From IMG/VR virus record IMGVR_UViG_3300049893_002926, positions 1-48,047 of that record: a DNA stretch of 48,047 nt. One strand, written 5' to 3'. Below, one piece after another: positions 34,833-48,047 of the stretch; position 1 is the stretch's first letter, and each line of letters starts with the position of its first letter. The translations under genes were made by a program, and so were the position numbers. This DNA comes from a virus. A model generated the notes under the pieces. That model did not search any database. It saw only the letters and a list, made by a program, of their open reading frames with translations, and was not told the origin of the DNA.

Positions 34833-34969
34833 GCCGTCTCTCCGGCTGCCACGACTGGTTGCGCCGTCGTTCGCTTGCGCGAGGCGCCGCGCGCCCCCCC
34901 ATTGCGCGCGGCCCTCTTATCGGCCTTGTTCTGTTTGGCCAAACCTTCACGCCAAATGGTCGGCTTCAT
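34829..34969 (-). CDS. short basic protein between terminase and portal
   Basis: 46 aa, not recognised. It begins MKPTIWREGLAKQNKADKRA and is highly basic (Lys and Arg) with a Thr/Val end, as in short DNA-binding or internal peptides. It overlaps the terminase end by 23 bases and the portal start by ATGA. GAGGA lies 11 bases before its ATG. The wider frame up to 35356 is antisense-like. Real because of the tight coupling, but small, so confidence is moderate. Confidence 0.5.
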   Translation of the reverse strand: MKPTIWREGLAKQNKADKRAARNGGARGASRKRTTAQPVVAAGETA

Positions 34970-36491
34970 CCGCGTCGTCCTCGGCAAAGTCGGAACTATA
35001 GCCGTATTCCTCGGCATACTGGCGCAGGATTCGAGTCTTGAAGCCACCCTGGTCGTCCTCCGCCGCACGCCCCGAGATGGGCACGGCAGAATACTCGGCG
35101 CCAGCCTCGCCGAAGGTCGCCAGGCCCAGAGCGTCCGCCCTGTCCGGAGACCGGCCAAGTCGCTTCTTGATCTCCTTCTTGCTCTCGACCTTGCGTCGGC
35201 CTTTCTCGTCAAAAGAGTAGGCAGGAGCGATGAGGTCTCCGAGAAGAATGCTGTCATCCGGAATGGCCCCACCGTTGGCCAGGAAGGAGTGGATGCCAAA
35301 CCACAACTCGGAGCGCCTGTCTGGGAACTGGTCGGGTTGTGTGGATGACTCCGCAACGTTCACCTCCACGAGCCGGATGCGCCCTCGATTGCCATCCTCG
35401 CGGAGCTGGTCCGCAACGCCCCCGCCCACCCCTATCACGTCCACGTGCACGCTGACCACCTCGCCGGGGGTCATGCGAAGCGAGTCGGCTACGTTGCGCA
35501 CCATGGCGGCGACGGCCACCGTGTCCAGGCCGTTCACGGCGTAGAAGCCCAGGACCTTACGCCCCCGCCGGGCGGCAATGACGGAGTCATCGTCCCCAAA
35601 CCGAGCCACGTCCACGCCCAGAACCAACTCCCCATCCGCCGTCGTGTCCTCGTACCGCGCGACGGCCGCCTCGACGAGGGCCAGCGGGATGACTACGTGG
35701 CTCCCCTGTTTGGGAAAGTTTCCCGCAACACGCACCTCGTAGAGCGGATTCGTCCGGCCCCAGGTGCGGAGCTTCTCCTCGCACCAGCCCCGCGTCGCCA
35801 AGCCTTGGCCAGGCGGCCCGCGCTCCGCCGCGTCGACCGACGACAGGTGGTGAAGGTCCCAACCGAGGTCTTTATGGAAGGCGTCATAGAAGAAGCCAGA
35901 AAGCTGGGTGGGGTTGCTGAACGCTCCGACCTTCGCCCCTCCAGCGCGGTTGCCCTCGAGCGCCATGTAGATGGAATCGGGAACGCCGGAAGCCTCGTCG
36001 ATGAGGAAGAGCATCGCCGGGCCGGAGTAGCCGGCCATCTTTTCGGCGTCCTTCGTGAAGAACCCCACCACTTCGCGGCCGTCGGGGTATTGCAGCCCCG
36101 ACTCCGGCAACTCGTGCAGGTTGCCGCCGAGCGGGACGCGAGCGCGGTTGTAGAGGCGCTTGAACTCTTTCCAGAAGATGGCCTTGACCTGCCGGTGCGT
36201 GGGCGCGGTCACGATGACGCGGGCCCGCTCGAAGCAGCTCACAAACCAGAGCGCAACGCACGCAAACGCCGTGCTCTTCCCTGTCTTGTGACCGCTTCGG
36301 CAAGCAACAAGGTCGTGCAGCGCAAACGCCCGGATAAGGCGCTCTTGGGCCTCCCACGGCTCGATGGCCAACACCTCGCGGGCGAAGCCTACCGGATCGC
36401 TCCGAAAACGGTCGAAACGAGGTTCACGTCCCACCTCGAGGGAGGCGAGGCGCTCCGCGGCTACCCTGGCTAACGGCGATTTCAAGGACAC
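34947..36491 (-). CDS. terL: terminase large subunit
   Basis: 514 aa. ATPase: Walker A RSGHKTGKST at 65-74, Walker B LFLIDEASG around Asp165-Glu166, coupling motif GAFSNPTQ near 189-195. Nuclease: Asp294 in LVLGVDVARFGDDDS, Asp351 in HVDVIGVGGGVAD, and Asp450/Asp453 in GRSPDRADALGLA, the three acidic clusters of the RNase H-like fold. Both domains are complete. A GTG at 36491 with GGAGGTG is used. The C-terminal 40 residues are acidic. Powers DNA packaging; with a Mu-like head. Confidence 0.92.
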   Translation of the reverse strand: MSLKSPLARVAAERLASLEVGREPRFDRFRSDPVGFAREVLAIEPWEAQERLIRAFALHDLVACRSGHKTGKSTAFACVALWFVSCFERARVIVTAPTHRQVKAIFWKEFKRLYNRARVPLGGNLHELPESGLQYPDGREVVGFFTKDAEKMAGYSGPAMLFLIDEASGVPDSIYMALEGNRAGGAKVGAFSNPTQLSGFFYDAFHKDLGWDLHHLSSVDAAERGPPGQGLATRGWCEEKLRTWGRTNPLYEVRVAGNFPKQGSHVVIPLALVEAAVARYEDTTADGELVLGVDVARFGDDDSVIAARRGRKVLGFYAVNGLDTVAVAAMVRNVADSLRMTPGEVVSVHVDVIGVGGGVADQLREDGNRGRIRLVEVNVAESSTQPDQFPDRRSELWFGIHSFLANGGAIPDDSILLGDLIAPAYSFDEKGRRKVESKKEIKKRLGRSPDRADALGLATFGEAGAEYSAVPISGRAAEDDQGGFKTRILRQYAEEYGYSSDFAEDDADEADHLA

Positions 36492-37074
36492 GCTGGTACA
36501 CCTCCGATGGCAGCTCCGCCCGACACGCCTCGAGGAACTCCTCCATCATCATGGAGACACGCCCCTCCACCTCGACCTGCACCTTTTGCCTGAACTCGGG
36601 CGAATAGGCGGCCAGCAGGAACTTGTTCCAGCCAGTGTCTTTCGCCACGCTGGCGACGTCGTTGCCCTGCCTCACGATCATCGCCTGGCGCTCGCCGATG
36701 ATCTGGTCGTACGACTCGATGAAGACCCCATAGATCGGGTGCGCCTCCGGGTCATCCGCGAGGCGCCGGTACTTGGCCAGAAGCTCCTTCGTGATGCCAT
36801 TGGAGCGGCAAGCCTGCTCCGGCACCTGCCAGTCCTGAATGGCCTTGAGGACGGCGTTTGCCTTGGCCCGCGTGAGCTGGTGGCGGAGCTGCAACGTGCC
36901 GTGATGGTTCGCCCGCGCCAAGGGCGCCACGTCCACGTCGAGGATCGCCGCGCGGGTCAGGTCCCCTTCCGTGATGTGAGCCGCGGCCTGGCTGCGCGCC
37001 ACGTCATTCAGGCTCGCGACCGAGGGCTCGTCCCGAAAAGTGTCGTCCTCGTCGCCTCTGCCTCTCCTGGCCAT
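36424..37074 (-). CDS. probable small terminase-like protein (upstream of terL)
   Basis: 216 aa, not recognised by sequence. It is helical with HITEGDLTRAAILDVDVAPL, and RVSMMMEEFLEACRAELPSE, with polar, disordered ends. It overlaps terL by 68 bases. Its position directly before terL is that of the small terminase/DNA-binding protein, but no clear HTH is visible in residues 45-120. The ATG at 37074 (MARRGRGDEDDTF) was chosen over the ATG at 37173 because the latter would cover the divergent gene's start. Confidence 0.68.
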   Translation of the reverse strand: MARRGRGDEDDTFRDEPSVASLNDVARSQAAAHITEGDLTRAAILDVDVAPLARANHHGTLQLRHQLTRAKANAVLKAIQDWQVPEQACRSNGITKELLAKYRRLADDPEAHPIYGVFIESYDQIIGERQAMIVRQGNDVASVAKDTGWNKFLLAAYSPEFRQKVQVEVEGRVSMMMEEFLEACRAELPSEVYQRVLEIAVSQGSRGAPRLPRGGT

Positions 37075-37135
37075 GTGCCGACTCTGGCACACAATAGGTT
37101 GACCTGGCCAGCCGTGCCGAGGTATCGCCCCGAGG

Positions 37136-37612
37136 ATGGAAGCAAATCCTTTGTCCGGATTCGTGATGGCCATCCTGCTCCGCGAAGTGCCTGCGGAACA
37201 CCATCGGTGGACAGGGGAGCGTCACGAGGTCACCCTGGCTCGTTACGAGAATCTGGCAGACGCCATTGCGAGCGTCGCTGCCGACGAGCACGAAGCCGCC
37301 ATGCTTGCCGTCACGGCCGCGGCGGAGAGCGCCATCCGCGCCGATGTCCTGGCCTGCCAACGGTGGGGCGACGGCGGGCCCAAGGCCAAGGCATGGGGAG
37401 CGTTCGGCGTGGTCACCCCGAAGGCCGAGGCGTGCGGGCCGCTCCCGGTCCAGGCGGCACTCGCCCTGCGGCTTCTGCGGACGTCCCTCGCCGCGTGCGC
37501 CCATCGGCCCACGCCTTACCGCATGGCCTGGTACCTCTCCGGGTCCTGCTCCCGAGGGGCCCAGGAGTCGGCGCGCCGCTGGCGCATCGCATCCCGCCAC
37601 GCCCGAGAGTGA
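37136..37612 (+). CDS. lysozyme-like (lytic transglycosylase-type) protein
   Basis: 158 aa. The core MLAVTAAAESAIRADVLACQ carries Glu64-Ser65 in the position of the catalytic Glu of SLT-type lysozyme folds (usual form -HESG-), followed by GDGGPKAKAWGAFGVV, the small beta region, and a C-terminal LALRLLRTSLAAC helix with the end LSGSCSRG. It would cut peptidoglycan. The gene is on the plus strand between the early and late minus operons. The ATG at 37136 has CGAGG directly before it and a second ATG at 37166; start uncertain. Family is inferred from pattern. Confidence 0.6.
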   Translation: MEANPLSGFVMAILLREVPAEHHRWTGERHEVTLARYENLADAIASVAADEHEAAMLAVTAAAESAIRADVLACQRWGDGGPKAKAWGAFGVVTPKAEACGPLPVQAALALRLLRTSLAACAHRPTPYRMAWYLSGSCSRGAQESARRWRIASRHARE

Positions 37613-37624
37613 GCCGGGCGCCCG

Positions 37625-37662
37625 AAAAAACGAAAGGAGCGCCCCCCGAAGGGAACGCTCCT
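37625..37662 (-). terminator. rho-independent terminator of the early operon
   Basis: The minus strand carries AGGAGCG then a loop of about 14 bases and CGCTCCT, a 7-bp perfect stem, followed by TTCGTTTTTT. The T run lies only on the minus side. It stops transcription from the early genes ending at 37797, and its position just before the plus-strand lysozyme-like gene separates early and late blocks. Seven bp is short but GC-rich. Confidence 0.65.
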
Positions 37663-37796
37663 CTCGCGCCACTCGTCTCGGGAGGATCGGAGCGACAGTT
37701 CGACATGGCCAGGTTGGCCGCGGCCTGGGGGGAGGTCGCTCAACCGTGCACTGGCGAACGGACCCACCTTAGCCGAGCCACGCCGTGGCGCAAGAG

Positions 37797-38003
37797 CTAG
37801 AACAACGAGCCCTGGCGCTTCGCCGCTTCCTGGGCCAGAGCTTCCGACTCTGCTCGGGTGAGGCCCACCACCTGCCGGCGGCAGGCATCGCAGAATGCGC
37901 GGAGGCCCCAGCGCTCGCAGTCCCACACCGTCACCGCGCGCCGCCGGCAACGCGGGCCCGTGCATCGCCCCGCCGAGCGACGCATCCCCAAGTCGAAATC
38001 CAT
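37797..38003 (-). CDS. small Cys-rich protein, last gene of the early operon
   Basis: 68 aa, not recognised. Cysteines occur as CTGPRC near residue 14 and CERWGLRAFCDAC near 29, spacing for one zinc site, with many Arg. The ATG at 38003 has only AAGAAG upstream, so the start is less certain. A terminator follows about 135 bases after the stop. May be a regulator or anti-host protein. Confidence 0.6.
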   Translation of the reverse strand: MDFDLGMRRSAGRCTGPRCRRRAVTVWDCERWGLRAFCDACRRQVVGLTRAESEALAQEAAKRQGSLF

Positions 38004-38029
38004 GTGCTTCTTGTCGACCTGCCGAAAGC

Positions 38030-38245
38030 TCAATTCGGCGCTCCTCTGGGGATGGCGCGTCGGCCCCACCCGACCATGGCGAAGGGCTCCGGCGCTGCGA
38101 TGGGCGCGCGGACGGGACGCCCCGCTCCCCACCGCGCCATCGTGCACTCGGCGCATCGACGGAGCAAGACCCCCTCGTGGTCAGGCTCCACCGTCGCCGC
38201 ACACCGCCCGCACGCACACGTCCCCTCGCAGGTAATCGCCATCAT
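38030..38245 (-). CDS. small zinc-ribbon-like protein
   Basis: 71 aa, unknown. A CEGTCACGRC and a CAEC pair give four or more zinc ligands, then a Pro/Gly/Arg-rich tail. GGGAGG lies five bases before ATG 38245, a clear start. It is separated by 90 bases from the divergent plus-strand gene at 38336, so a promoter might lie between. Confidence 0.65.
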   Translation of the reverse strand: MMAITCEGTCACGRCAATVEPDHEGVLLRRCAECTMARWGAGRPVRAPIAAPEPFAMVGWGRRAIPRGAPN

Positions 38246-38335
38246 GTTCGCCTCCCAAACGGTCAATCGTCAGGCATCGACGCGAACGTACGACTATCGA
38301 ATTGCATACGCAAGAGGCGGAGTCATGATTTCAAG

Positions 38336-38626
38336 GTGACGCCCTACCGCGAGCCCGCTACCCTCCGGCCTAGCCCCCCGGCGCCGGCTGCGCGGTCGTG
38401 GTTGTCGTCCTTCCCCTGGCCTGCTGCCGGTCGCGCGGCCGGCGTCGCGGCGGGCCTTGCCGTCGCCATCGGCGGAAGCGTCTGGCTCCTCGCCGTGGTC
38501 CTGACGTGGCTCTCGCAGAACTTCGGGGTGCTGCTTTTGCTCGGGTTCTGGGTCTTCGGCGCCCGCGGGGGGCGGAGGAGCCGGGTTGCGCCCCAAGGGC
38601 ACTGGCCGAGCGGTAGGCGGCGCTAG
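38336..38626 (+). CDS. small membrane protein on the plus strand
   Basis: 96 aa, start GTG at 38336. Two hydrophobic segments, about 37-59 (AAGVAAGLAVAIGGSVWLLA onward) and 66-78 (FGVLLLLGFWVFG), precede an Arg-rich tail. Size and topology fit a holin or a membrane exclusion protein. A four-codon leader ATG ATT TCA AGG TGA directly before it ends over its GTG. Its TAG is interlocked with the stop of the facing gene, which argues the gene is real. No family known. Confidence 0.55.
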   Translation: MTPYREPATLRPSPPAPAARSWLSSFPWPAAGRAAGVAAGLAVAIGGSVWLLAVVLTWLSQNFGVLLLLGFWVFGARGGRRSRVAPQGHWPSGRRR

Positions 38627-38919
38627 GCCAGGGCGTCTCGCGTGGCCACGTCTACCCCCCACTCCTCCGCGCACGAGGGGCAGTCGCCACCGTCGGAGAA
38701 GTGCCAGGTGTCGCCATGGGGGCATTCCACGGCCGCGCACCGGGCGCACCCGGGCACCGTGCAGGGGTAGTGCTTCTGGGCCTCGGCGAGGAGCAGGAGG
38801 GAGCGCATCCCGAGCGCCAGGGACCAGTCGGCCCCCCTCAGGGAGAGCCGCCAGAGGCACGCCCCGCAGACCCCTTGGTGGGTCCAGTGGATGCACCCGG
38901 GCGTGATGCACGCCGCCAA
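38623..38919 (-). CDS. Cys-rich zinc-binding protein, start uncertain
   Basis: 98 aa from a TTG at 38919. Cysteines occur in four groups: CITPGC, CGAC, CTVPGCARC, then CPHG and CPSC, enough for two zinc sites. There is no ATG; a frame shift relation (-1) to the preceding gene suggests overlap of about 80 bases or fusion by frameshift. Its TAG shares CTAG with the membrane gene on the other strand. Function unknown. Confidence 0.6.
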   Translation of the reverse strand: MAACITPGCIHWTHQGVCGACLWRLSLRGADWSLALGMRSLLLLAEAQKHYPCTVPGCARCAAVECPHGDTWHFSDGGDCPSCAEEWGVDVATRDALA

Positions 38920-39269
38920 TTCCGCACGCGCGGCACGCTCGGCATAGCGGCGAAGAGCCGGTCCAACTGCTCGTTGTTGAACCTTCGGCTGGCCTTTTGC
39001 AGCTTCATGGCTCGCGTCTCCACGGTGCGGCACCATGCCCGCTGCCGGGCGCTGAGCGGACGACGAAGCTCCGCCACCATGAGCCCCATGCGCCAGAAGG
39101 CGTTCATCTCGCGCTGCCGCAGGTACAGGCGGAGCTGCGTGCAGAGCCGCCGCAGAAGCGCCAGGTCCAGAGCCGCCATCCGCTCCGCCTCCTCCTGCTC
39201 CTCCGCCGTCTCCGCCGTGTGGGCCCCCAGCTCCGCTTCTAGGGCGAAGTCCAAATCGTCGTCGGACAA
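38838..39269 (-). CDS. hypothetical helical protein (TTG start)
   Basis: 143 aa. The TTG at 39269 follows AGGAGGAGG, the strongest ribosome site nearby, which decides the start. Residues 1-30 are acidic, then a long basic helix (ALLRRLCTQLRLYLRQREMN and RQRAWCRTVETRAMKLQKAS). Overlaps the next gene's start in another frame; the last 30 residues are low-complexity. Not recognised. Confidence 0.62.
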   Translation of the reverse strand: MSDDDLDFALEAELGAHTAETAEEQEEAERMAALDLALLRRLCTQLRLYLRQREMNAFWRMGLMVAELRRPLSARQRAWCRTVETRAMKLQKASRRFNNEQLDRLFAAMPSVPRVRNWRRASRPGASTGPTKGSAGRASGGSP

Positions 39270-39280
39270 GCTCCTCCTCC

Positions 39281-39478
39281 TCAGGCCGCATACAGCACTC
39301 GAGCCCCACCCACGTCGGGGAGCTTCGCCACGCTGCAAAATCCGTCCATGGGGTCCGGCTCCAGGCCCCAGAACGAAAGCGCGAGCAGTTTAGCCTCGTC
39401 CCCGCTCGCCGCCCGGACGAGCGCGAACTTCTTCGCTCCACCCGCGAAGGCCACCCAGACCACCGTCCACATCTCCAT
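39281..39478 (-). CDS. small hypothetical protein
   Basis: 65 aa, unknown. Starts MEMWTVVWVAFAGGAKKFAL, a beta-hairpin like start, then a helix SGDEAKLLALSFWGLEP and a short beta end. It starts directly after the stop codon of the previous gene. The ATG 39478 is clear. Small alpha/beta domain of unknown role. Confidence 0.62.
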   Translation of the reverse strand: MEMWTVVWVAFAGGAKKFALVRAASGDEAKLLALSFWGLEPDPMDGFCSVAKLPDVGGARVLYAA

Positions 39479-39763
39479 CTAGAGCTTCCTTTCGCGGCAA
39501 AACCGCTGCCACCTCGCCTCCGCCTCCGACTGCGACCTTCGGATTTCCCTCAAGTCTGCACCGCAGAAAGGGCACCAGTCGAGGGCCGCGCGAAGGGTCC
39601 GACCCCTATCCCACCACATCCAGAGCGTAAGGGGCCGCTCCCCGCGCCGGAACACCTTGGGGCTCTTGGGGTCGTCCAGCGCTTCGCGCATCCGTCTGCA
39701 AAAGTCCCCGCGCACACACCGACGTGGAACGTCGGGCCACTCCGTAATTTCAGGCAGAGGCAT
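39479..39763 (-). CDS. zinc-ribbon protein
   Basis: 94 aa. Cys pairs are CVRGDFC near 16-22 and CPFCGADL near 64-67; a helix follows, then basic end. The shape, a single CPFCG knuckle in a small helical protein, is seen in many phage early proteins. AAGGA before ATG 39763. Overlaps the previous gene's end by 14 bases. Function unknown. Confidence 0.65.
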   Translation of the reverse strand: MPLPEITEWPDVPRRCVRGDFCRRMREALDDPKSPKVFRRGERPLTLWMWWDRGRTLRAALDWCPFCGADLREIRRSQSEAEARWQRFCRERKL

Positions 39764-40262
39764 GGTCCTTCAGCATCCGCCGCATGGCCGCATTCTCGCT
39801 CATGAGCCGACGGAGGAGTTGCTTGTCCGAACCCGTAACCGGCTCGGAAAGGTCCGTCCCGGTCATGGACCGCAAGGTCTCCCATTCGAGGCGCACGAGC
39901 CTAATTCTCGAGACAAGAAGGCTCTCACATTTTTTCCGGTGAGCTTTGGCTTCTCCGCCCAGCGGCTTGCCGCAGTGTGCGCACCTGTCGACGCTTCCTC
40001 GGTGAAGCAAGCCCGCGCACTTCCAGCAAAGCCGGGCCCCGGTGTAGCTGTTCGGGTAGAAGCGCTCGGTCAAGCACGCGCCGCAGGACCACACCGTCAT
40101 CCCCTTTCGCGGCACGTCCGGGCGATAGGCTGGGTCCTTCAAAGCGTGAACGCACCGCCAGCACACCCCAGGCATGGCGGTCTCCAGGCTCTCGCGAATG
40201 GGGGCGCGCTCCTTCTTGCCGCATACCTTGCACGTCACCTGCGCCCCGAGCCTGCTAGTCAC
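39750..40262 (-). CDS. multi zinc-knuckle protein
   Basis: 170 aa from GTG 40262. Five CxxC pairs are seen: CKVC, CWRC, CGAC, CWKC and CAHC, spread over residues about 10-95, followed by a helical C-terminus LLVSRIRLVRLEWETLRSMT. These fit two zinc ribbons plus an extra ligand pair. No enzyme motif is visible. A nucleic-acid or host-protein binding role is plausible. Confidence 0.68.
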   Translation of the reverse strand: MTSRLGAQVTCKVCGKKERAPIRESLETAMPGVCWRCVHALKDPAYRPDVPRKGMTVWSCGACLTERFYPNSYTGARLCWKCAGLLHRGSVDRCAHCGKPLGGEAKAHRKKCESLLVSRIRLVRLEWETLRSMTGTDLSEPVTGSDKQLLRRLMSENAAMRRMLKDHASA

Positions 40263-40467
40263 GGAGCACCCGTAGCCTGGAGAGTCCCGCGAATTCCCCG
40301 CCACACCCGCCGCAGGCGATGGCCGCCCCGGAGCGCATGGCCAGGTCCCAATCCGCCGCGTCGAGCGAAGAGACCGAGCCGCAGCCAAGGCAGCGCAGGT
40401 GTGCGCCCCCCTTCCACCATGACATGCCACAGGCGACCTTAGTTGGACGCTGCTTCGCCGGGTTCAT
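40255..40467 (-). CDS. small zinc-ribbon protein
   Basis: 70 aa. RCLGCGSVSS near 25 and ACGGCGGEFAGL near 50 make a single CxxC-x21-CxxC zinc ribbon, typical spacing. ATG at 40467, overlaps the previous gene by 29 bases and the next by 8. Probably binds nucleic acid or a protein. Not recognised further. Confidence 0.66.
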   Translation of the reverse strand: MNPAKQRPTKVACGMSWWKGGAHLRCLGCGSVSSLDAADWDLAMRSGAAIACGGCGGEFAGLSRLRVLRD

Positions 40468-40726
40468 CCGCGCAATCCTCTTCCATCTTGTCCGCTACGC
40501 CGGCCGCCACAAGGCGCACCGACACCACTTCACCCAAATGCCGCGCGCAGAGCCCGGCATGAACCACGAGGAGAGCCAGGGCTTCGTCCAGCATGGTCAC
40601 CCCCAGCTTCGTGGCCATCGTCCGCCGTTCCGCACCGTGCGACCGAAGCAAGGCTTCGCGCGACACCACACGCGCGGTCTTCATGAGGGCGGCCACCTCG
40701 GCCAGGGCGTTCTCTGTCTTTGCCAT
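40439..40726 (-). CDS. hypothetical helical protein
   Basis: 95 aa. Two helices (NALAEVAALMKTARVVSREA and MLDEALALLVVHAGLCARHL) with an acidic end. No known family. ATG 40726 overlaps the previous TGA (TGATG); GTG 40729 is an alternative that adds one residue. AAGGGA upstream. Confidence 0.62.
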   Translation of the reverse strand: MAKTENALAEVAALMKTARVVSREALLRSHGAERRTMATKLGVTMLDEALALLVVHAGLCARHLGEVVSVRLVAAGVADKMEEDCADEPGEAASN

Positions 40727-41034
40727 CACGAGCCGTTCCCTTCCGTGCCGCCATCCGATTCACCCTCCGCGGCTTCCATGGTGCTTGCAACCTGCAAGCA
40801 CGCGCGATTGTGATTCAGCCAGTCTCCGGTCGTCCGAGAGAGCATCTCCACGGCCATCTGGTGCGCACACGCCGAGCACGTGCCCATCGTCATGCACGTG
40901 CGAGCCCAGTGCTTCAGCAGCATCAGCGCCGTCACGTGCATGAACTCGAGGGATAGTTCCTGATCCTTCGTTAGCAACGAAAGGACGCGCTGCACGTGCG
41001 CAATGCCCCGGTCGATCTCCTCCTCGTTCGTCAT
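40726..41034 (-). CDS. hypothetical helical protein with Cys cluster
   Basis: 102 aa. A long helix with HVTALMLLKHWARTCMTMGT, then CSAC and a Glu-rich acidic tail. The cluster CMTMGTCSAC is a possible metal site. ATG 41034 overlaps the diphosphohydrolase stop as ATGA. Coupled with that gene, maybe functionally linked. Unknown. Confidence 0.65.
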   Translation of the reverse strand: MTNEEEIDRGIAHVQRVLSLLTKDQELSLEFMHVTALMLLKHWARTCMTMGTCSACAHQMAVEMLSRTTGDWLNHNRACLQVASTMEAAEGESDGGTEGNGS

Positions 41035-41351
41035 CCGTCCACCGCCTCCAGGCAGTCCTCTGCCGTATCGTTCGAGGTCGCGGGGCGCTTTTCGTCCGCC
41101 CACGCTTCCACGGCCATGGCCATCGCAATGCGCACGAAGGCGTGGGCAAGGCTGGGAAGTCCCGTCTCGGGGTCCAAACGAAGCCCGTTTGCCCACGCAG
41201 TCACGTGGCGACGTGCGGCTTCGGCGTGGTCCAAGGACGACACCTTGCGAAAGTTGCCAGGCGGATACTTCTTTGCGCCCTCCACGAGCACTCGCAAGCC
41301 GTCGAACGTGGCCATGCTTAGGGCTGCAATCTCGTCCTTCTCAACCAGCAT
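41031..41351 (-). CDS. dATP/dGTP diphosphohydrolase-like protein (N-terminal domain family)
   Basis: 106 aa. The conserved blocks are LVEGAKKYPPGNFRKV at 22-37 and ARRHVTAWANGLRLDPETGL then PSLAHAFVRI at 46-75, the signature of the phage dATP/dGTP diphosphohydrolase N-terminal (MazG-like helical) family: lysine pair, WRK-like turn, DPETG and HLAHA. These enzymes hydrolyse purine dNTPs to monophosphates and shape the dNTP pool. The usual W in the NWRKV block is F here. It starts at ATG 41351 and is the first gene before a divergent plus gene. Confidence 0.78.
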   Translation of the reverse strand: MLVEKDEIAALSMATFDGLRVLVEGAKKYPPGNFRKVSSLDHAEAARRHVTAWANGLRLDPETGLPSLAHAFVRIAMAMAVEAWADEKRPATSNDTAEDCLEAVDG

Positions 41352-41455
41352 GCATTCACCTCTACGGCCGAAGCCGCCCGCTCGTCCACCAGACCAAGTG
41401 CTCGGGCGTGCGCTTCGATGTTGTCGCCCATAAGCTCAGAGACTAGAAACCGTGC

Positions 41456-41908
41456 ATGCACCGTAACTACGCCGATATCCTAAGACGTTGCGGGGCACCC
41501 CTTTGGTGGGACGACCGCGGCGTGCCCAGGTACGAGCGCTTCGCCCCGGCGCTCCTCGGGCAGCTTACGTCCGCCGCCGCCCTCCTCCGCATTCGATGCG
41601 TCTCCTGCTCGACGGAGTTTGTCGTGGCATGCCACGGGCCCGCCCCACGCCTCCGGCACTTGATCGCCGCCGGCACCATCACCTGGGGACCCCCGCCCTT
41701 CCTGCCCTGCTGCGAGCTGGGCCCCCGGCTATTCTCGGCGGTTATCGAAGTGGTGGAGTTTTGGACGCTCGACGGGACGTGGACGCGGGACCGGGACGCC
41801 GAGCGCGTGTTCCCCGCCGTCCACGAGCCCACGGAAGACGATTCCTCCGCCGGGGAGGAGGACCCGGACGGGGAGACGTCAGGCATCCCCACCCCGCGCT
41901 TCTTCTAG
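41456..41908 (+). CDS. hypothetical Cys-containing protein on the plus strand
   Basis: 150 aa, unknown. RIRCVSCSTEFVVACHG and later PCCELG are possible metal ligands; WTLDGTWTRDRDAERVF and an acidic disordered tail follow. It is isolated within the minus-strand early operon, 104 bases from the divergent diphosphohydrolase gene. Its TAG stop shares CTAG with the stop of the gene at 41905-42201. No family. Confidence 0.66.
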   Translation: MHRNYADILRRCGAPLWWDDRGVPRYERFAPALLGQLTSAAALLRIRCVSCSTEFVVACHGPAPRLRHLIAAGTITWGPPPFLPCCELGPRLFSAVIEVVEFWTLDGTWTRDRDAERVFPAVHEPTEDDSSAGEEDPDGETSGIPTPRFF

Positions 41909-42201
41909 GTCAGTCGCTCGTCGAGGTAACGGTCGACGTTCGGCCATGCAGCCCGAAGTGCTCGGTAGCGAGACTTCTCGCCGCGCACTTCGCCGGGGCC
42001 CATCACAAGCAACGCGGCTTCCTGCGCAGACAGCGGAGAGGCACCTGCCGCCAGGTCCCGCATGACCACCTCCTCCAACTCCCGCAGCGACAGAATCACG
42101 TCTGCATCCTGAAATGCTGCCGTTCGCAAGTCGGTCGCGATGGCGCGGACCCGGCGCACCCAGGCGATGCGCTCCCGACCTGGCATGGCGGGCCGCGTCA
42201 C
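41905..42201 (-). CDS. hypothetical helical early protein
   Basis: 98 aa from GTG 42201, overlapping the previous stop (GTGA). Helical with WVRRVRAIATDLRTAAFQDA, then EEVVMRDLAAGAS and an end YRALRAAWPNVDRYLDERLT. No known domain. The longer frame up to 42678 is antisense-like and was ignored. Confidence 0.65.
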   Translation of the reverse strand: MTRPAMPGRERIAWVRRVRAIATDLRTAAFQDADVILSLRELEEVVMRDLAAGASPLSAQEAALLVMGPGEVRGEKSRYRALRAAWPNVDRYLDERLT

Positions 42202-42437
42202 GGTTCCGGACCCGTCACGAGGGCGCGGGGCCCGGGGGCCAGAAGCCGCTCCGCCTCCTCCTCGGAAGGCCCCTCGGAGGGCTCCTCCCCCCCTCGCGCC
42301 TCCAGCTCCCCAGGACACGGCGACGCCTCGACCCAGGAGCCGTTGACCCGCCCCCAGAGAGCCCCGCGAGGGCAGCCAATGAGGGTCGCGGAGGTCACGA
42401 TCCGCCCCCCACACGCCGAACACCGATGGGCCGTCAT
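42198..42437 (-). CDS. small zinc-ribbon-like protein
   Basis: 79 aa. Starts HRCSACGGRIVTSATLIGCP, a CxxC and a third Cys, with a short basic/acidic tail (Glu-rich GEEPSEGPSEEEAE). ATG 42437 overlaps the regulator's stop as ATGA. Probably a small regulator. Unknown. Confidence 0.65.
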   Translation of the reverse strand: MTAHRCSACGGRIVTSATLIGCPRGALWGRVNGSWVEASPCPGELEARGGEEPSEGPSEEEAERLLAPGPRALVTGPEP

Positions 42438-42790
42438 GGCGATACCCCCCGAGCCTTGGCGAGGCGCCGGGCTTCCCGCGCCAGCACCCCACGGAGGGGC
42501 GCGTACCCACCGGGCCAGTTACGCACCGTCGCAAGAATGTCCTGAGGCACGTGACCCGCGGCCCGAAGCCACACGTCCACGTCCTCGCCAAGAACCTCCG
42601 CCACCCGCACGACCCACGACGCCGCCGGGTGGCATTCACCCCGCTCCACCCGCGAGACATAAGTCGGGGATGCGTCAATGAGCCGCGCTAGCTCGCGCAG
42701 ACTCAGGGCCGACGGACGCGACTCCCGCGCACGGACGAGCAGCGCCCCCAGCGGCGTCGACTCCCGTCGGCTCACGTGTTTTCGCGGCAT
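42434..42790 (-). CDS. XRE-family helix-turn-helix regulator
   Basis: 118 aa. Residues 28-70 read SLRELARLIDASPTYVSRVE then RGECHPAASWVVRVAEVLGE, a clear HTH of XRE/Cro-CI type. The end is helical and basic. It may repress or activate early or late transcription; the operator is not seen. GGTGGAG precedes ATG 42790. Being embedded in the early operon argues against a classic CI repressor with its own divergent promoter. Confidence 0.85.
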   Translation of the reverse strand: MPRKHVSRRESTPLGALLVRARESRPSALSLRELARLIDASPTYVSRVERGECHPAASWVVRVAEVLGEDVDVWLRAAGHVPQDILATVRNWPGGYAPLRGVLAREARRLAKARGVSP

Positions 42791-43026
42791 GGCTCCACCT
42801 TCCGCACGGCTTCGACCCATGCCCGCACCGAGCGGCGCGACGTGCCCATGTCGGCGCAGTAGGCGTCGGGAAGCCCCTCCACGGCCACAAGCCAATGCCC
42901 GCTGGCTACCTGGTAGGGCGCGCCACGCACAACCCCCTCGTAGCACCGTCGGCCACCTAGCACCGGGAAGTACAGCACCCGGTCTCCGTCCCCTAGCGCG
43001 TCAGAATGTGTCCCTGCCCCAGTCAT
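42772..43026 (-). CDS. hypothetical small beta protein
   Basis: 84 aa. ATG 43026 was chosen: AGGAGG lies seven bases upstream, too close for the ATG at 43032. GDRVLYFPVLGGRRCYEGVV suggests an SH3-like beta barrel, followed by a helix with RSVRAWVEAVRKVEP. Not recognised. Overlaps the regulator start by 19 bases. Confidence 0.65.
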   Translation of the reverse strand: MTGAGTHSDALGDGDRVLYFPVLGGRRCYEGVVRGAPYQVASGHWLVAVEGLPDAYCADMGTSRRSVRAWVEAVRKVEPCRENT

Positions 43027-43366
43027 GCTCATGCCTCCTCACCTTCTTGGCCCCCGCCTCACGCTCCGCCCGCAAGATGACTCGCAAGCTCTCGCACGCC
43101 ACCCGAGGCCCGTCCTCCCGCTCCACCACCCGGCCCTCGACGTACAGCAACGTTCCCCGCGGCAGCCTTGACCGCGCCGCGTCCGAATACCGATCCGGCA
43201 TCTCGACCACGCACGTGTCCCGGGTGGACTCCCACTCGCCGCTCCGGGACTTGTAGCGCCGCTCGATGGACAGTCGAATGCGGGCCCCTGAGGCTCCCCG
43301 TTCGCCGAACACCATCGTCACCTTGCCCACCACGTAGGCCCGCGCGAAAGAGCCCCCCGCCGTCAT
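43001..43366 (-). CDS. ssb: single-stranded DNA-binding protein (OB fold)
   Basis: 121 aa. The OB pattern of SSB is visible: ARAYVVGKVTMVFGER at the start, IRLSIERRYKSRSGEWES, CVVEMPDRYSDAARSRLPRG then TLLYVEGRVVERED. The C-terminus ends basic then HDWGRDTF, with only a partial acidic tip. ATG 43366 overlaps the previous stop. SSB would protect phage ssDNA during replication or recombination with the nuclease at 71-1225. Confidence 0.8.
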   Translation of the reverse strand: MTAGGSFARAYVVGKVTMVFGERGASGARIRLSIERRYKSRSGEWESTRDTCVVEMPDRYSDAARSRLPRGTLLYVEGRVVEREDGPRVACESLRVILRAEREAGAKKVRRHEHDWGRDTF

Positions 43367-43599
43367 AGCCACGTGCCCACGATGCACGGCTCGTCCGTCG
43401 GCGAACGAGCCAGAAACACCCGCCCCTCGGGCACCATCGCCTCCGCCCGCCGGCGCGACGGAGACCTGTACGCCACCCCGTTGACGGGTTCGGGAGCCCC
43501 CGGCACCACGAACCACTGGCGCACCACCCACTCCCCCGGCGCATCGTCCGGCGACTCGTAGAGCACCCACATGTCCAAGAGCGATGTCGCCTGGCTCAT
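43363..43599 (-). CDS. hypothetical small protein
   Basis: 78 aa. Starts MSQATSLLDMWVLYESPDDA, beta-rich with VVRQWFVVPGAPEPVNGVAY, and ends CIVGTWL. Neighbour of SSB, ATGA-coupled on both sides. No family recognised; may form a small alpha/beta fold. Confidence 0.65.
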   Translation of the reverse strand: MSQATSLLDMWVLYESPDDAPGEWVVRQWFVVPGAPEPVNGVAYRSPSRRRAEAMVPEGRVFLARSPTDEPCIVGTWL

Positions 43600-43895
43600 G
43601 GGGACCCCACGTTCGCGACGCCCGCATGACGGCGCCACGCGACCAAGAACGCCTCGCGCAAGGATGGGTCGGCAAGCCCAGGCCCGAACGCCGTGTGCAG
43701 CTTTTCCGCCAGATAGGGCACCTGCCCCATCGTCCACGACGCCCTACAACCAGGAGGCGCCGCAAGAAGCGCGTCCGCGTACTCGCGCACCACGATGCAG
43801 AGTGCACGCATCCCCTCGTCGTCCGCCAACTCCGCCACCTTCTCGAACTGCTCCGCCAACCAGGCCACCATGGCTCTGCGACCTTCCAGATTCAT
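43596..43895 (-). CDS. hypothetical helical protein
   Basis: 99 aa. Helical: MVAWLAEQFEKVAELADDEG, then REYADALLAAPPGC and EKLHTAFGPGLADPSLREAF. GGGAGG lies before its ATG 43895. It is followed by an ATGA-coupled gene. Unknown function. Confidence 0.65.
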   Translation of the reverse strand: MNLEGRRAMVAWLAEQFEKVAELADDEGMRALCIVVREYADALLAAPPGCRASWTMGQVPYLAEKLHTAFGPGLADPSLREAFLVAWRRHAGVANVGSP

Positions 43896-43908
43896 CCCAT
43901 GCCTCCCG

Positions 43909-44172
43909 TCACTCGTGCCCGAACCACAACACCCGCGCCGCTTCCGTCACGTCCTCCCCATCCTCCTGCGCGTCCACCAGCTCCGCATACGTCGGATCTG
44001 CGTCCAGCTCCCCGCTCGTCCGCCATGCGCCTTGCTCCCCTCGAGCACACTGGTGGCAGAGAGACATAACAGGCGCCCCGCCCGCCTTCGCCAGCGCTTC
44101 CGCCAGCGATGCAGCCTCCACCTCGAAGAGCAGCGTGATTTGAGGGTTCACCACAAATGTGTAGCGCTTCAT
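43909..44172 (-). CDS. hypothetical protein with CxxC
   Basis: 87 aa. Starts MKRYTFVVNPQITLLFEVEA, a beta hairpin; then SLCHQCARGEQGAW, a zinc-like pair. ATG 44172 has GGGAGAGAG upstream, so I preferred it to TTG 44193. Acidic C-terminus. Unknown. Confidence 0.65.
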   Translation of the reverse strand: MKRYTFVVNPQITLLFEVEAASLAEALAKAGGAPVMSLCHQCARGEQGAWRTSGELDADPTYAELVDAQEDGEDVTEAARVLWFGHE

Positions 44173-44194
44173 GCGTCTCTCTCCCTTCCGCAAC

Positions 44195-44524
44195 CTAAGG
44201 CAGCAACGTGGCGTTGAACGCCAAGGGGTGGGCCGTCGCCTCGTCCCTTGTCATCCCCGCGTGGACCAGCGCCGACTCGCACACCATGCCCTTGCGCCGA
44301 ACCATGCACGGGCCTTCGCTCTGCGCCTGGTGCTGACAAGCGTCCTCGATGGGGCACCTCGGCACCTCCAAGGCATCCGCCAAGTCCTCGGCACCCGTGT
44401 CCACCCTGCAACGCCCCGCCGCCTTGTCCCATCCGCTCCGGCACCGCGTGCAGGCGGTGACTTCCATCCAAACCGCCGCCGAGTAATGCTGCGGGCAGAG
44501 CATGGGGAGGGCTCGCTTGGTCAT
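44195..44524 (-). CDS. Cys-rich hypothetical protein
   Basis: 109 aa. Cys occur as CPQHY, CTRCRSGW, CRVD, CPIEDAC, then CMVRRKGMVC, at least eight in 109 residues. ATG 44524 overlaps the previous stop. Likely binds two zinc ions or forms disulfides if exported, though no signal peptide is seen. Unknown. Confidence 0.65.
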   Translation of the reverse strand: MTKRALPMLCPQHYSAAVWMEVTACTRCRSGWDKAAGRCRVDTGAEDLADALEVPRCPIEDACQHQAQSEGPCMVRRKGMVCESALVHAGMTRDEATAHPLAFNATLLP

Positions 44525-45063
44525 GGGCCTCCGGGCCGCTCGGGGACGAGAAGCGGCGTCCAGTGCGTCACGTAATCGGGGAAGTCCTCGGTCAGGGGGT
44601 CGCCGCAATACGGGGGCTCGACGATAGGAAAGACCCACCAGAGGCAAGGCCCGTCATCCTCGTCCCAGTCCGCCTTCGGGCGAGGCGTGAGCGCATCCTC
44701 AAGCCGCCCCTCGACCAAACGGAGGCGGTCCACCTCCCGCGCCACGTCCTCGGGACCCTTGGTCAAGACGGGCCCATCCGGCTGCACGAAACCCAGGACC
44801 GTCATCAACTCCCACCATGAATGATGCCCCTGGACCACCGCCCGGAGCGTCTCCTGCCGAAAGACCGCCACGCGGCGCCACCACTCAAGCGCCTGGCCCA
44901 ACCGCTCCGCGTCGCACCGACACGGCGTCTGGACCCGAATGCCATCGGGGTAGGCCACCCGGCACGACTCCGAGGTGCACCCGTGCACCGGCATGTCGCG
45001 CGGGGGCCGTTGCATGTCCCGAAGCCGAGCCCTGAGCCGGCGGAGAGCAGACCCGTCCTTCAT
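44521..45063 (-). CDS. hypothetical protein, Cys and Trp rich
   Basis: 180 aa. CTSESC and CRCD early, a helix ALEWWRRVAVFRQETLRAVV and a C-terminal acidic, Trp/Pro-rich region CLWWVFPIVEPPYCGDPLTE. No known family. ATG 45063 overlaps the upstream stop. Coupled to neighbours. Confidence 0.66.
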   Translation of the reverse strand: MKDGSALRRLRARLRDMQRPPRDMPVHGCTSESCRVAYPDGIRVQTPCRCDAERLGQALEWWRRVAVFRQETLRAVVQGHHSWWELMTVLGFVQPDGPVLTKGPEDVAREVDRLRLVEGRLEDALTPRPKADWDEDDGPCLWWVFPIVEPPYCGDPLTEDFPDYVTHWTPLLVPERPGGP

Positions 45064-45482
45064 AGCCGGCTAACCCATCCTCCCTCGGCCTGCCACACGT
45101 GCCCGTGCGCCCGCAGAATCCCCATCAGGCCCCCCATCTCCTCCTTCGTCATCCGCCAATACGCCCCCTCGCGCCGCTCGGCCATGAGGGCGCGCAACTC
45201 GTCCAGCCCATACGCCCGCCCGGCCACCATCCGCTCCCCCACGGCGGAGGCCCGGAGCACCACGCGCTCCCATGACGTTAGCTTCGCGCACTTCGTGTGC
45301 CACATGATGAAGCGCGCCGTGCGGCCCAGCCAAAGCGCCTCGCCGTCGGGGCTGTGCGGACCGTCAAACCCCGCGAACATCCCCTCGCACCCCGTGCACT
45401 CGAGCGCCCGCTCGGGGCCGTCCCACGTCACCACGACCCATGGGCACTGGCACGCCTCGGGCGGAATGGCCTCCTCGTTCAT
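45060..45482 (-). CDS. hypothetical zinc-ribbon-like protein
   Basis: 140 aa. CQCPWVVVTWDGPERALECT GC-type cluster gives a possible zinc ribbon (Cys11, 13, 29, 32). The rest is helical, with a final VWQAEGGWVSRL. GTGGAGGA precedes ATG 45482. Function unknown. Confidence 0.66.
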   Translation of the reverse strand: MNEEAIPPEACQCPWVVVTWDGPERALECTGCEGMFAGFDGPHSPDGEALWLGRTARFIMWHTKCAKLTSWERVVLRASAVGERMVAGRAYGLDELRALMAERREGAYWRMTKEEMGGLMGILRAHGHVWQAEGGWVSRL

Positions 45483-45658
45483 TCCTCCACCTCTTCGTCG
45501 AACGCGCGCACGGCGTCATGCGCCTTGCGCAGACGGCGCCAGAGGGCCTCGCTCGGGTCTTTGCCGAGCCTGTAGCACGCCAGCAGATCATCCCGCGCCT
45601 TCACGGCCGCGCGAAGCGCTCGCGCGTGACGCTCCCAATTCACCTGGTTCACCAGCAC
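45479..45658 (-). CDS. small helical protein
   Basis: 59 aa. Start GTG 45658, with GGAGG five bases upstream; a second GTG at 45652 overlaps the previous stop as GTGA. Helical and charged: ARALRAAVKARDDLLACYRL, then a heptad-like end. Perhaps a regulator subunit of the methyltransferase upstream. Unknown. Confidence 0.6.
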   Translation of the reverse strand: MLVNQVNWERHARALRAAVKARDDLLACYRLGKDPSEALWRRLRKAHDAVRAFDEEVEE

Positions 45659-46266
45659 TGAAGCCTCCGCTCTCCCGGCACAAACACCTGCGCCGGGAAC
45701 GTCCAGAGCCCGGCCTTGCGCATCACCCGAGCCGCGAAGCGCAGGTCCCCGAAGTGCAAAAGAGCCCCCTGGTTCTCCGGGTTCTTTCGCTCCCCGCCCT
45801 TCACCGGGTCCAACCATCGCACCCGACGGCGGAACACGCCCGCCATGGCCTTCTCCCCCCACTCCACGCCCGGCGGCTTGTACGCCGCCGACTCCGCCGC
45901 CGACGTGAAAAGCACCTGCTCGTTGAAGAGCGCCACCGTGACCGGCATCTTCCACCTGGCGTGCACCGTCGCCGCCCACACGATGGCGTTCCGCACGTGC
46001 ACCCCCCGCAAGTCCCCAGGAGGGTTGCAGTAGAGCGCGCTGGACGCATCCAGCACAGGCTCGTACCGCCACCACTTGTCGGGCCCAAAGCCGCACGCCG
46101 GTCGACCGAAATCCAGATCCAGGTTCACCCGGCGCATGCCCGCGCACGCGGGGCGCGTCACGTCGAACGTGTCCCCCTTCCGCGGGTTCATCGCACAGAC
46201 AAGCTCGACTACGCTTGGAGGAGTCCCCCAGTCGTCGCGATAGGACGCAGGTTTGCGAGCAGCCAT
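45649..46266 (-). CDS. DNA N6-adenine methyltransferase-like protein (phage Dam family)
   Basis: 205 aa. DDWGTPPSVVELVCAMNP near the start is the phage Dam opening (W-TP). Residues 48-54 (NLDLDFG) and the motif IV site at 81-84, NPPG within LYCNPPGDLRG, match the family; W100-region VHARWKMPVTVALFNEQVLF is motif V. Most relatives have NPPY or NPPF; here the aromatic is Gly, which may affect base flipping. It probably methylates phage DNA to avoid restriction. AGGGAG before ATG 46266. Confidence 0.72.
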   Translation of the reverse strand: MAARKPASYRDDWGTPPSVVELVCAMNPRKGDTFDVTRPACAGMRRVNLDLDFGRPACGFGPDKWWRYEPVLDASSALYCNPPGDLRGVHVRNAIVWAATVHARWKMPVTVALFNEQVLFTSAAESAAYKPPGVEWGEKAMAGVFRRRVRWLDPVKGGERKNPENQGALLHFGDLRFAARVMRKAGLWTFPAQVFVPGERRLQCW

Positions 46267-46597
46267 CGGGCTCCCTTTCGACCGAAACGCTTCTGGAAAA
46301 CGCCAGGGGTAAACGCGAGGAAAGAACGGTGCGGGCATCGTGCGAATCCGCGCAAAATGGTCGGCTCTTGGTGCGGAGTGCCGACCAGGTCCCTCCGGCC
46401 TGGGAATCCCCGTCCCTCGCGCCCCAGGACGTTTCGCTTTTCGCGGGACGGTGGAGACAAAACCCCGGTCTCTCCCGGGCGTCACGACTCGCTACACGGC
46501 GTCGTTCCCTGAGTCCCCATAGGCGGCTCGGTTCAACGTCACCTACTGCGCCAACGGGTCCTTCCTGCGGCGCCCGCACCCCGCGAGCGCCAAACCC
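46267..46597 (-). other. 331-base gap upstream of the methyltransferase gene
   Basis: No convincing gene on either strand; the small frames here have low-complexity, shadow-like composition. A 5-bp hairpin CCCGG/CCGGG with GAGAGA loop and GTTTTG on the minus strand at about 46458-46479 may be a weak terminator after the gene at 46598. A promoter for the downstream minus genes would be expected here, but I see no clear -35/-10 pair. Confidence 0.4.
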
Positions 46598-47359
46598 TCA
46601 CCCCTCCGCCCCGCTCCCCGCGACCTCACGCGGGGAGTTGGGCCCGAACACCAGCCAAATGCCCCACGGGTCCGACTCCAAGAGGTCCCCCATCAGCACG
46701 ACCGACCATCCCGTCGCCCGCGCCCGCTCCACGTCCCCAGGATGGGCCAACTCCCACCGCCCGCCCCCCCGCAACGTTGCATCATCCTCCCCAGGCGCCT
46801 CGTCCCGAAGGGTGATGCACTCCCGTCCGTTGTAATTCGCGACGGCAAGGCTCCACGCCCCGTCTTCTTCCTTCTGCCCCATGAGCCTCGACGAGAGAAC
46901 CCGCGACAGGTCGAATGCCTCCACCGTCGGCCACGGTTCCCCGAAGGACTTGAAGAGGGCCGGGGCTTCCTCCCATGGGCGCACGAGCCACCTTCGCCCG
47001 TGCTTCAAGCTCCCGTCCACGAGCACCGCCGTTGTCTGCGCCGCAATCCCCTGGAGCTGCGCCCCGGTGCACCGATGGTCCCCATAACCCTCCTCCACCG
47101 TGGACTGGAGAGCGCCGGGGATGTTCGAGAGCAGCGTGAAGCAGTCGGGATGGTTCACGTGCCGCAGAGAAAAGACGCGCTCCCCGTCGCTCTGGCAGTA
47201 GATGGGCGGCTCGTCGACCGAAAAGGACGTCCGTGGAAGGTACAGCACCCCGTCCAGCCGACCCCACCGCGCCTCGAACATCCGCCGCCCCGCCGCCGTC
47301 TCCACACGGTCAGCCTTCTTCCCCGCCTCACTCCCCGTCGCCTCACCCGTCATGGTCAT
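46598..47359 (-). CDS. hypothetical protein
   Basis: 253 aa, unknown. Mixed alpha/beta: GRLDGVLYLPRTSFSVDEPP, a central LSNIPGALQSTVEEGYGDHR, and a final MGDLLESDPWGIWLVFGPNS. The ATG 47359 was chosen with AGAGG upstream, against GTG 47377. Slightly Trp-rich. It is followed by a 331-base gap, unusual for this genome, so it may be the end of one transcription unit. Confidence 0.66.
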   Translation of the reverse strand: MTMTGEATGSEAGKKADRVETAAGRRMFEARWGRLDGVLYLPRTSFSVDEPPIYCQSDGERVFSLRHVNHPDCFTLLSNIPGALQSTVEEGYGDHRCTGAQLQGIAAQTTAVLVDGSLKHGRRWLVRPWEEAPALFKSFGEPWPTVEAFDLSRVLSSRLMGQKEEDGAWSLAVANYNGRECITLRDEAPGEDDATLRGGGRWELAHPGDVERARATGWSVVLMGDLLESDPWGIWLVFGPNSPREVAGSGAEG

Positions 47360-47425
47360 GGCCAAACCTCTTGCCACCTGTCACCGTAACAGGCAACACT
47401 CGACTGCTCGAGGAGCGACACTTCA

Positions 47426-47707
47426 ATGAGCCAAGGCGCCCCCACGCATCGCTGCCCCATGTGCGGCGGCGTCAGCCACCCCGCCAGCGGGTGCGTCTAT
47501 TCCCCCACGTTCATCGTCTGCGGCCCGTGCACGCGCGCCTTCTGGGCATGGCTCGTGCCCTTCATGAGCGGCAAGGGCCGGCGACGTGGCCCCGCGTTCT
47601 ACGACCATGCCTTCAGAACGGCTTGTGGGGCCGAAGCTCCCCCAGCTCCGCGCTCAAGCGCAACCCCCAGCTCCGGAGCCGCTCCACCTCCGCCTCCATC
47701 CACTTAA
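47426..47707 (+). CDS. small zinc-binding protein on the plus strand
   Basis: 93 aa. HRCPMCGGVSHPASGC and VCGPCTRAFWAWLVPFM form a zinc ribbon-like unit of four Cys, followed by FYDHAF; this pattern is known from small phage early proteins. The last 25 residues are Pro/Ala/Ser-rich and antisense to the end of the facing gene, so the protein's folded part is about 68 residues. The ATG at 47426 is the first in frame. Function unknown. Confidence 0.62.
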   Translation: MSQGAPTHRCPMCGGVSHPASGCVYSPTFIVCGPCTRAFWAWLVPFMSGKGRRRGPAFYDHAFRTACGAEAPPAPRSSATPSSGAAPPPPPST

Positions 47708-48047
47708 TCCGAGCCCTCAGAAACCCCACCTGGCTCACGAGCCGCGCCACCTGCCTGACCACCAGGGGCCAGGAAGCCTCCCCACGAAGCCCGAGGTCCA
47801 CCCGGAGCTGGGCTAAGGCCGCGTCGGCCGAAACCTGCTCGCCTATGTCCAGGAGCGCGTGGCAACCGCCATGAGCCGCCGCCCATACGGTCATCATGGC
47901 GGGGGATGCGTCGGGGGCAGGCAGGGGAATCCCCGCCTCCTGGCATGCCATGGCGCACGATGCGCACAGCGACGTGCCGCACGTCAGCCCGCACGCATGG
48001 CATCGGGGGCTTCGCGCGCTGCCCTTGAGCTGCCCCTGGTCGTAGGT
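47613..48047 (-). CDS. Cys-rich helical protein, 5' partial at the right edge
   Basis: The first ATG in the frame is at 47951, but the frame is open to the right edge and the 32 upstream codons read sensibly, including CHACGLTCGTSLCASC, a zinc-type cluster. So the gene probably begins outside the window. The C-terminal helix VARLVSQVGFLRARIKWMEA suggests a coiled coil. It overlaps the facing plus-strand gene by 95 bases at the 3' ends. Unknown function. Confidence 0.65.
   Translation of the reverse strand, partial: TYDQGQLKGSARSPRCHACGLTCGTSLCASCAMACQEAGIPLPAPDASPAMMTVWAAAHGGCHALLDIGEQVSADAALAQLRVDLGLRGEASWPLVVRQVARLVSQVGFLRARIKWMEAEVERLRSWGLRLSAELGELRPHKPF

Follow-up and report, generated by a model that had tools for sequence, protein, structure and literature searches.

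The window analyzed here, i.e., the entire 48,047-base IMG/VR virus record IMGVR_UViG_3300049893_002926, is classed as a linear record that may be a fragment. The virus is unclassified; its head genes are of the Mu type and its tail is contractile. The left three quarters of the window form a late module, the products of which include Mu-type portal and major head proteins, a lysozyme, a tail sheath protein and a PD-(D/E)XK exonuclease. The large terminase shares less than 60% identity with every annotated phage, with the best among the matches listed at 27-35%, and a megablast comparison of the early region with phages matched no annotated phage. The early region, taken as positions 36424-48047, contains 31 genes by curated gene calling, and a terminator separates its leftward block from the packaging genes. 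A first-pass annotation of the sequence had described this region as one operon, which does not hold, since at least E15 and E30 are encoded on the plus strand, and probably E02 and E05 too. The landmarks of the region, and those of its genes discussed below that are not Cys-rich, are as follows.

34947-36491: large terminase.
37630..37667, minus strand: strong terminator hairpin with 17 pairs and a T tail, read from 37667 to 37630, where the leftward early genes end on their downstream side.
41031..41351, minus strand: E14, with a dATP/dGTP diphosphohydrolase N-terminal domain (PF18909).
42434..42790, minus strand: E18, a helix-turn-helix regulator (HTH_31, 9.3e-10).
43001..43366, minus strand: E20, OB-fold/SSB-like (PF00436, 2.3e-5, a score slightly short of the Pfam cut-off).
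45649..46266, minus strand: E28, 205 aa, with DDWGTPP and NPP motifs.

Taken for the whole region, the statement in the same annotation that enzyme motifs are absent is wrong, since E14 matches PF18909 at E 1.5e-15 (57.4 bits, above the Pfam cut-off of 27). For E14, the best PHROG match bears the label “endolysin; inhibits RNA polymerase,” whereas both Pfam and phrog_801 give dATP/dGTP diphosphohydrolase, and the endolysin label looks to have been carried over from a fused domain. E28 was considered as an adenine methylase on motifs recognized by eye only, and this candidate was rejected, as no Pfam or PHROGs profile recognizes the protein. Other observations concern E25 (44521-45063), the C-terminal part of which matches phrog_34095 (1.2e-10) and an ORF of locus L081 (50% over 46 aa); E05 (38336-38626, plus strand), a possible membrane protein in a gap between leftward genes with ambiguous codon support; and a gap of approximately 330 bases without a gene call between E28 and E29 (46267-46597), which is a candidate regulatory region and in which a consensus promoter scan gave no match.

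The genes in the early region that encode CxxC pairs are the following.

37797..38003, minus strand: E03, 68 aa; C-x4-C, C and CxxC; an orphan with weak PHROG matches only.
38030..38245, minus strand: E04, 71 aa; two CxxC in the arrangement CxCxxC...CxxC; an orphan with weak codon support.
38623..38919, minus strand: E06, with two blocks of C-x4-C plus CxxC; the start may be TTG at 38919 or ATG at 38808.
39479..39763, minus strand: E09, 94 aa; C-x5-C and CPFC.
39750..40262, minus strand: E10, 170 aa; five CxxC pairs, then a helical, probably coiled-coil tail.
40255..40467, minus strand: E11, 70 aa; two CxxC pairs; an orphan.
40726..41034, minus strand: E13, 102 aa; a single CxxC, mostly helical-looking; zinc site doubtful.
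41456..41908, plus strand: E15, 150 aa; member of the uncharacterized, widespread phrog_27600 family, with a CxxC.
42198..42437, minus strand: E17, 79 aa; CSAC and two more Cys.
43909..44172, minus strand: E23, 87 aa; a single CHQC; phrog_9642 (9.5e-6); zinc site doubtful.
44195..44524, minus strand: E24, 109 aa; eight Cys.
45060..45482, minus strand: E26, 140 aa; five Cys including one CxxC, in the N-terminal part.
47426..47707, plus strand: E30, 93 aa; CPMC, C and CGPC; weak codon support; overlaps the 3′ end of E31.
47613..48047, minus strand: E31, at least 144 aa, cut short by the contig end; CHAC, CASC and additional Cys, followed by a long coiled-coil-type region.

These 14 of 31 early genes contain 24 CxxC motifs, vs. 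2 of the 48 late genes (Fisher P = 1.5e-5), and cysteine makes up 3.3% of the residues of the early proteins and 0.6% of those of the late proteins, i.e., a share five times higher. The crowding of such genes reported initially is thus confirmed, with its count of about 15 of some 27 revised to 14 of 31, and the ORFs given as examples (at 38030, 38623, 39479, 39750, 40255, 42198, 44195, 45060, 47426 and 47613) are all real and all contain CxxC pairs. Shuffling residues within each protein gave a mean of 4.2 genes and 4.8 motifs, with a maximum of 10 CxxC genes over 5000 shuffles, vs. the 14 and 24 observed, where the E06 frame was opened to 38985 for these statistics and one E06 motif hinges on the start chosen. 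Since shuffled proteins give far fewer motifs, cysteine content alone does not explain the pairing.

In order to set this excess against other genomes, small genes were called with a single, home-made gene finder, which found CxxC in 12 of 26 small early genes (46%) and in 0 of 27 small late genes of the window. Among the matches listed for GC-rich viral contigs, the same gene finder found CxxC in 35 of 714 small genes (4.9%) at 116 loci, a baseline that was drawn with one 16-base pattern, mixes late with early regions and includes few loci that hold 12 small genes. Fairer comparisons are provided by loci bearing relatives of E15, where 45 of 203 small genes (22%) contain CxxC, or 28 of 186 when one relative per locus is removed, and by locus L170 and the Myxococcus phage Mx8. 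The densest run of 12 small genes contains up to 7 with CxxC in the window, 6 in L170 and 5 in Mx8, and at most 2 of 12 consecutive small genes do so in the complete phages D29, phiM5 and D3112. Mx8 resembles the window in having an array of small genes upstream of the terminase, although its CxxC density is lower and it contains no match to E10 or E24. As the E15-relative loci, Mx8 and L170 are also dense in CxxC, the window stands at the top of a continuum, and its crowding, which is real and extreme, looks like an extreme case of a common feature of phage accessory regions.

An artefact of GC-rich DNA, in the form of spurious ORFs or of cysteine pairs arising by chance, is a highly improbable explanation for this excess. 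Individual genes do invite it: E04 and E30 rank only third of the six frames by codon choice, and there are long overlaps between E06 and E07 and between E30 and E31. Against this, codon choice puts most of the Cys-rich genes in first or second place among the frames, these genes lie in a tightly packed array, the motif is scarce both among this phage's own late genes and in other GC-rich contigs, and E15 and E24 are conserved. Two or three of the 14 genes (E13, E23 and perhaps E04 or E30) may nevertheless represent chance motifs or weak gene calls.

The paired cysteines most probably bind zinc, as judged from sequence patterns and modeling. The first-pass annotation had described a concentration of zinc-ribbon-like proteins, and such a concentration, of probable zinc ribbons or knuckles, is real, with the cysteines conserved among relatives in both of the proteins for which relatives are available (E15 and E24); the description is doubtful for E13 and E23, each with one CxxC and little else, which may not bind metal. 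No usable relatives were found for the other 12 of the 14 proteins, including in protein-pattern scans of viral contigs with E26, and the same scans with E29 also found none. E24 is 53% identical to protein 195 of Virus Rctr197k (Rctr197k_195), with 8 of 8 Cys kept; this protein has a C-terminal extension absent from E24, and no shared neighborhood was seen. An alignment scan with E24 and a degenerate CPIxDxCxHQ pattern found no further relatives, and E24 and E10 had no match in 18 records behind related loci, in a search run without a positive control. The five CxxC pairs of E10 gave a match to the double zinc ribbon (DZR, PF12773) at E 0.0045 and 17.6 bits, below the Pfam cut-off of 27.3, and its single-sequence structure model, made without relatives, is unreliable (pLDDT 55).

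The most useful by-product of this survey is the E15 family. E15 matches phrog_27600 at E 4.5e-11 over residues 2-106, and shares the blocks PLWWDxxGVPR, CxxC and GxPP...C..G with the gp15 family of the Thermus phage P23-45 over most of its length. A first alignment scan recovered P23-45 alone, with no match in genome contigs, and a looser DNA pattern for WWDxxGVP recovered most of the family, from viral contigs and from Dehalococcoidia, Actinomycetes and Devosia assemblies. In total there are about 20 relatives in viral and bacterial records. Many of these share 29-37% identity with E15, and WWD..GVPR and CxxC are invariant in 20 of 20 aligned sequences, the relatives being about 30-42% identical. 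E15 is a diverged member of this family, in that it retains the block YGDPP...CC/C..G..M in part, as WGPPP...CC..G, with W-G-P-P for Y-G-D-P and without the Met of GxxM, and in that it has a C-terminal tail of its own. Family members lie at 41456-41908 of the window and at loci L214, L228, L211 and L007, several of them near DUF5131 or C5 methylase genes. Pfam gave no match for E15. A confident AlphaFold model built from 18 sequences (mean pLDDT 83) has strands at residues 40-48 and 54-61 and positions C48 and C51 in the turn that joins them, a predicted placement that is as needed for a zinc knuckle or ribbon. A Foldseek search with this model returned no confident structural relative; a likeness to ubiquitin-specific proteases was rejected, the matches being weak and not significant (E > 0.5).

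The suggestion that the Cys-rich proteins are duplicated ribbons diversified from a few ancestors is not borne out by comparison of the proteins with each other. We compared all 91 pairs of the 14 proteins against shuffles in which the cysteines were held fixed, and found no similarity beyond the cysteines themselves. The best pair reached z = 3.9, a value equaled by 1 of 200 shuffles; since this frequency is within reach of 91 tests, it provides no evidence of homology. Duplication and divergence is therefore very unlikely, even though E04 and E31 have in common a short stretch (CAxCxMA...AGxP...APxAxP) and the pairwise scores of E09, E10 and E26 are slightly above those of the shuffles, as the 91 comparisons gave nothing beyond the expectation for multiple testing. 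A duplication may have been so ancient that the cysteines alone persist.

We consider it probable that the region is an early or accessory module of mutually unrelated small Cys-paired proteins, with zinc in a structural role, that act as binding modules. This reading is supported by the early-type neighbors encoding helix-turn-helix, OB/SSB-like and dGTPase-type domains, by the position of the terminator ahead of the packaging genes, and by the existence of other clusters of small, host-directed early genes in phages (PMC6873191). Such a module would be transcribed mostly leftwards, ending at the terminator, and its small proteins would have been acquired independently. Their paired cysteines, most probably on structural zinc, would substitute for a hydrophobic core and so provide a minimal fold, and each protein would serve early in infection as a small binding module for a host or phage protein or for nucleic acid. 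The helical tails of several of these proteins (E10 and E31) could allow them to dimerize.

The proteins could also form a dedicated host-takeover or anti-defense arsenal, each inhibiting a specific host enzyme or defense system, a plausible but less likely reading. An example of a cluster of small early genes that act on the host is the host takeover module of SPO1, which contains ~26 mostly small early genes with largely unknown targets (PMC6873191). The window resembles this module in its early position and its many small orphan genes, a likeness of layout, and a text search of the SPO1 paper found no mention of zinc (PMC6873191). More generally, literature searches on Cys-rich phage early proteins gave no direct precedent among the papers covered. 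Against an arsenal, ten of the proteins had no match to any defense-related model in PADLOC, which is a weak negative because these models describe defense systems and not inhibitors. In addition, tblastn located E15 relatives on plasmids of Roseibium and Sphingobium, i.e., outside an obvious phage context. The absence of PADLOC, Pfam or PDB-level matches and of a functional relative speaks neither for nor against a host-takeover or anti-defense set.

It is unlikely that the Cys-rich proteins, instead of being directed at the host, assist as accessory factors in replication, in nucleotide metabolism or in the modification of DNA, although several neighbors point this way. The window itself encodes the diphosphohydrolase domain of E14 and the SSB-like E20, and the gene for Rctr197k_195, the relative of E24, adjoins a DnaQ-type exonuclease gene. 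DUF5131 genes adjoin the E15 relatives in L214 and L228 and lie on the same contig stretch in L211, and C5 cytosine methylase genes are near the relatives in P23-45 and L211. These neighbors of the E15 relatives are a lead towards DNA modification, from associations that are few and may be due to chance, and at other E15-relative loci the neighbors are RtcB, AAA or phosphoesterase genes, which argues against a shared role of this kind. A more far-reaching idea is a long shot: the phage would carry a functional set of some twelve zinc-knuckle microproteins that evolved independently, with a different host or defense target for each, and E15 would be a common representative of an overlooked family of phages and plasmids that works with DUF5131 proteins or DNA methylases.

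No part of phage genomes is understood less well than the small orphan early genes. Of the regions sampled in this analysis, the early region of the window has one of the highest densities of CxxC proteins, which makes it a compact test set for the question of whether zinc-stabilized microproteins are a preferred form of phage early effectors, and the E15 family, conserved across ~20 viral and bacterial records and lacking a Pfam model, offers experiments a concrete target.
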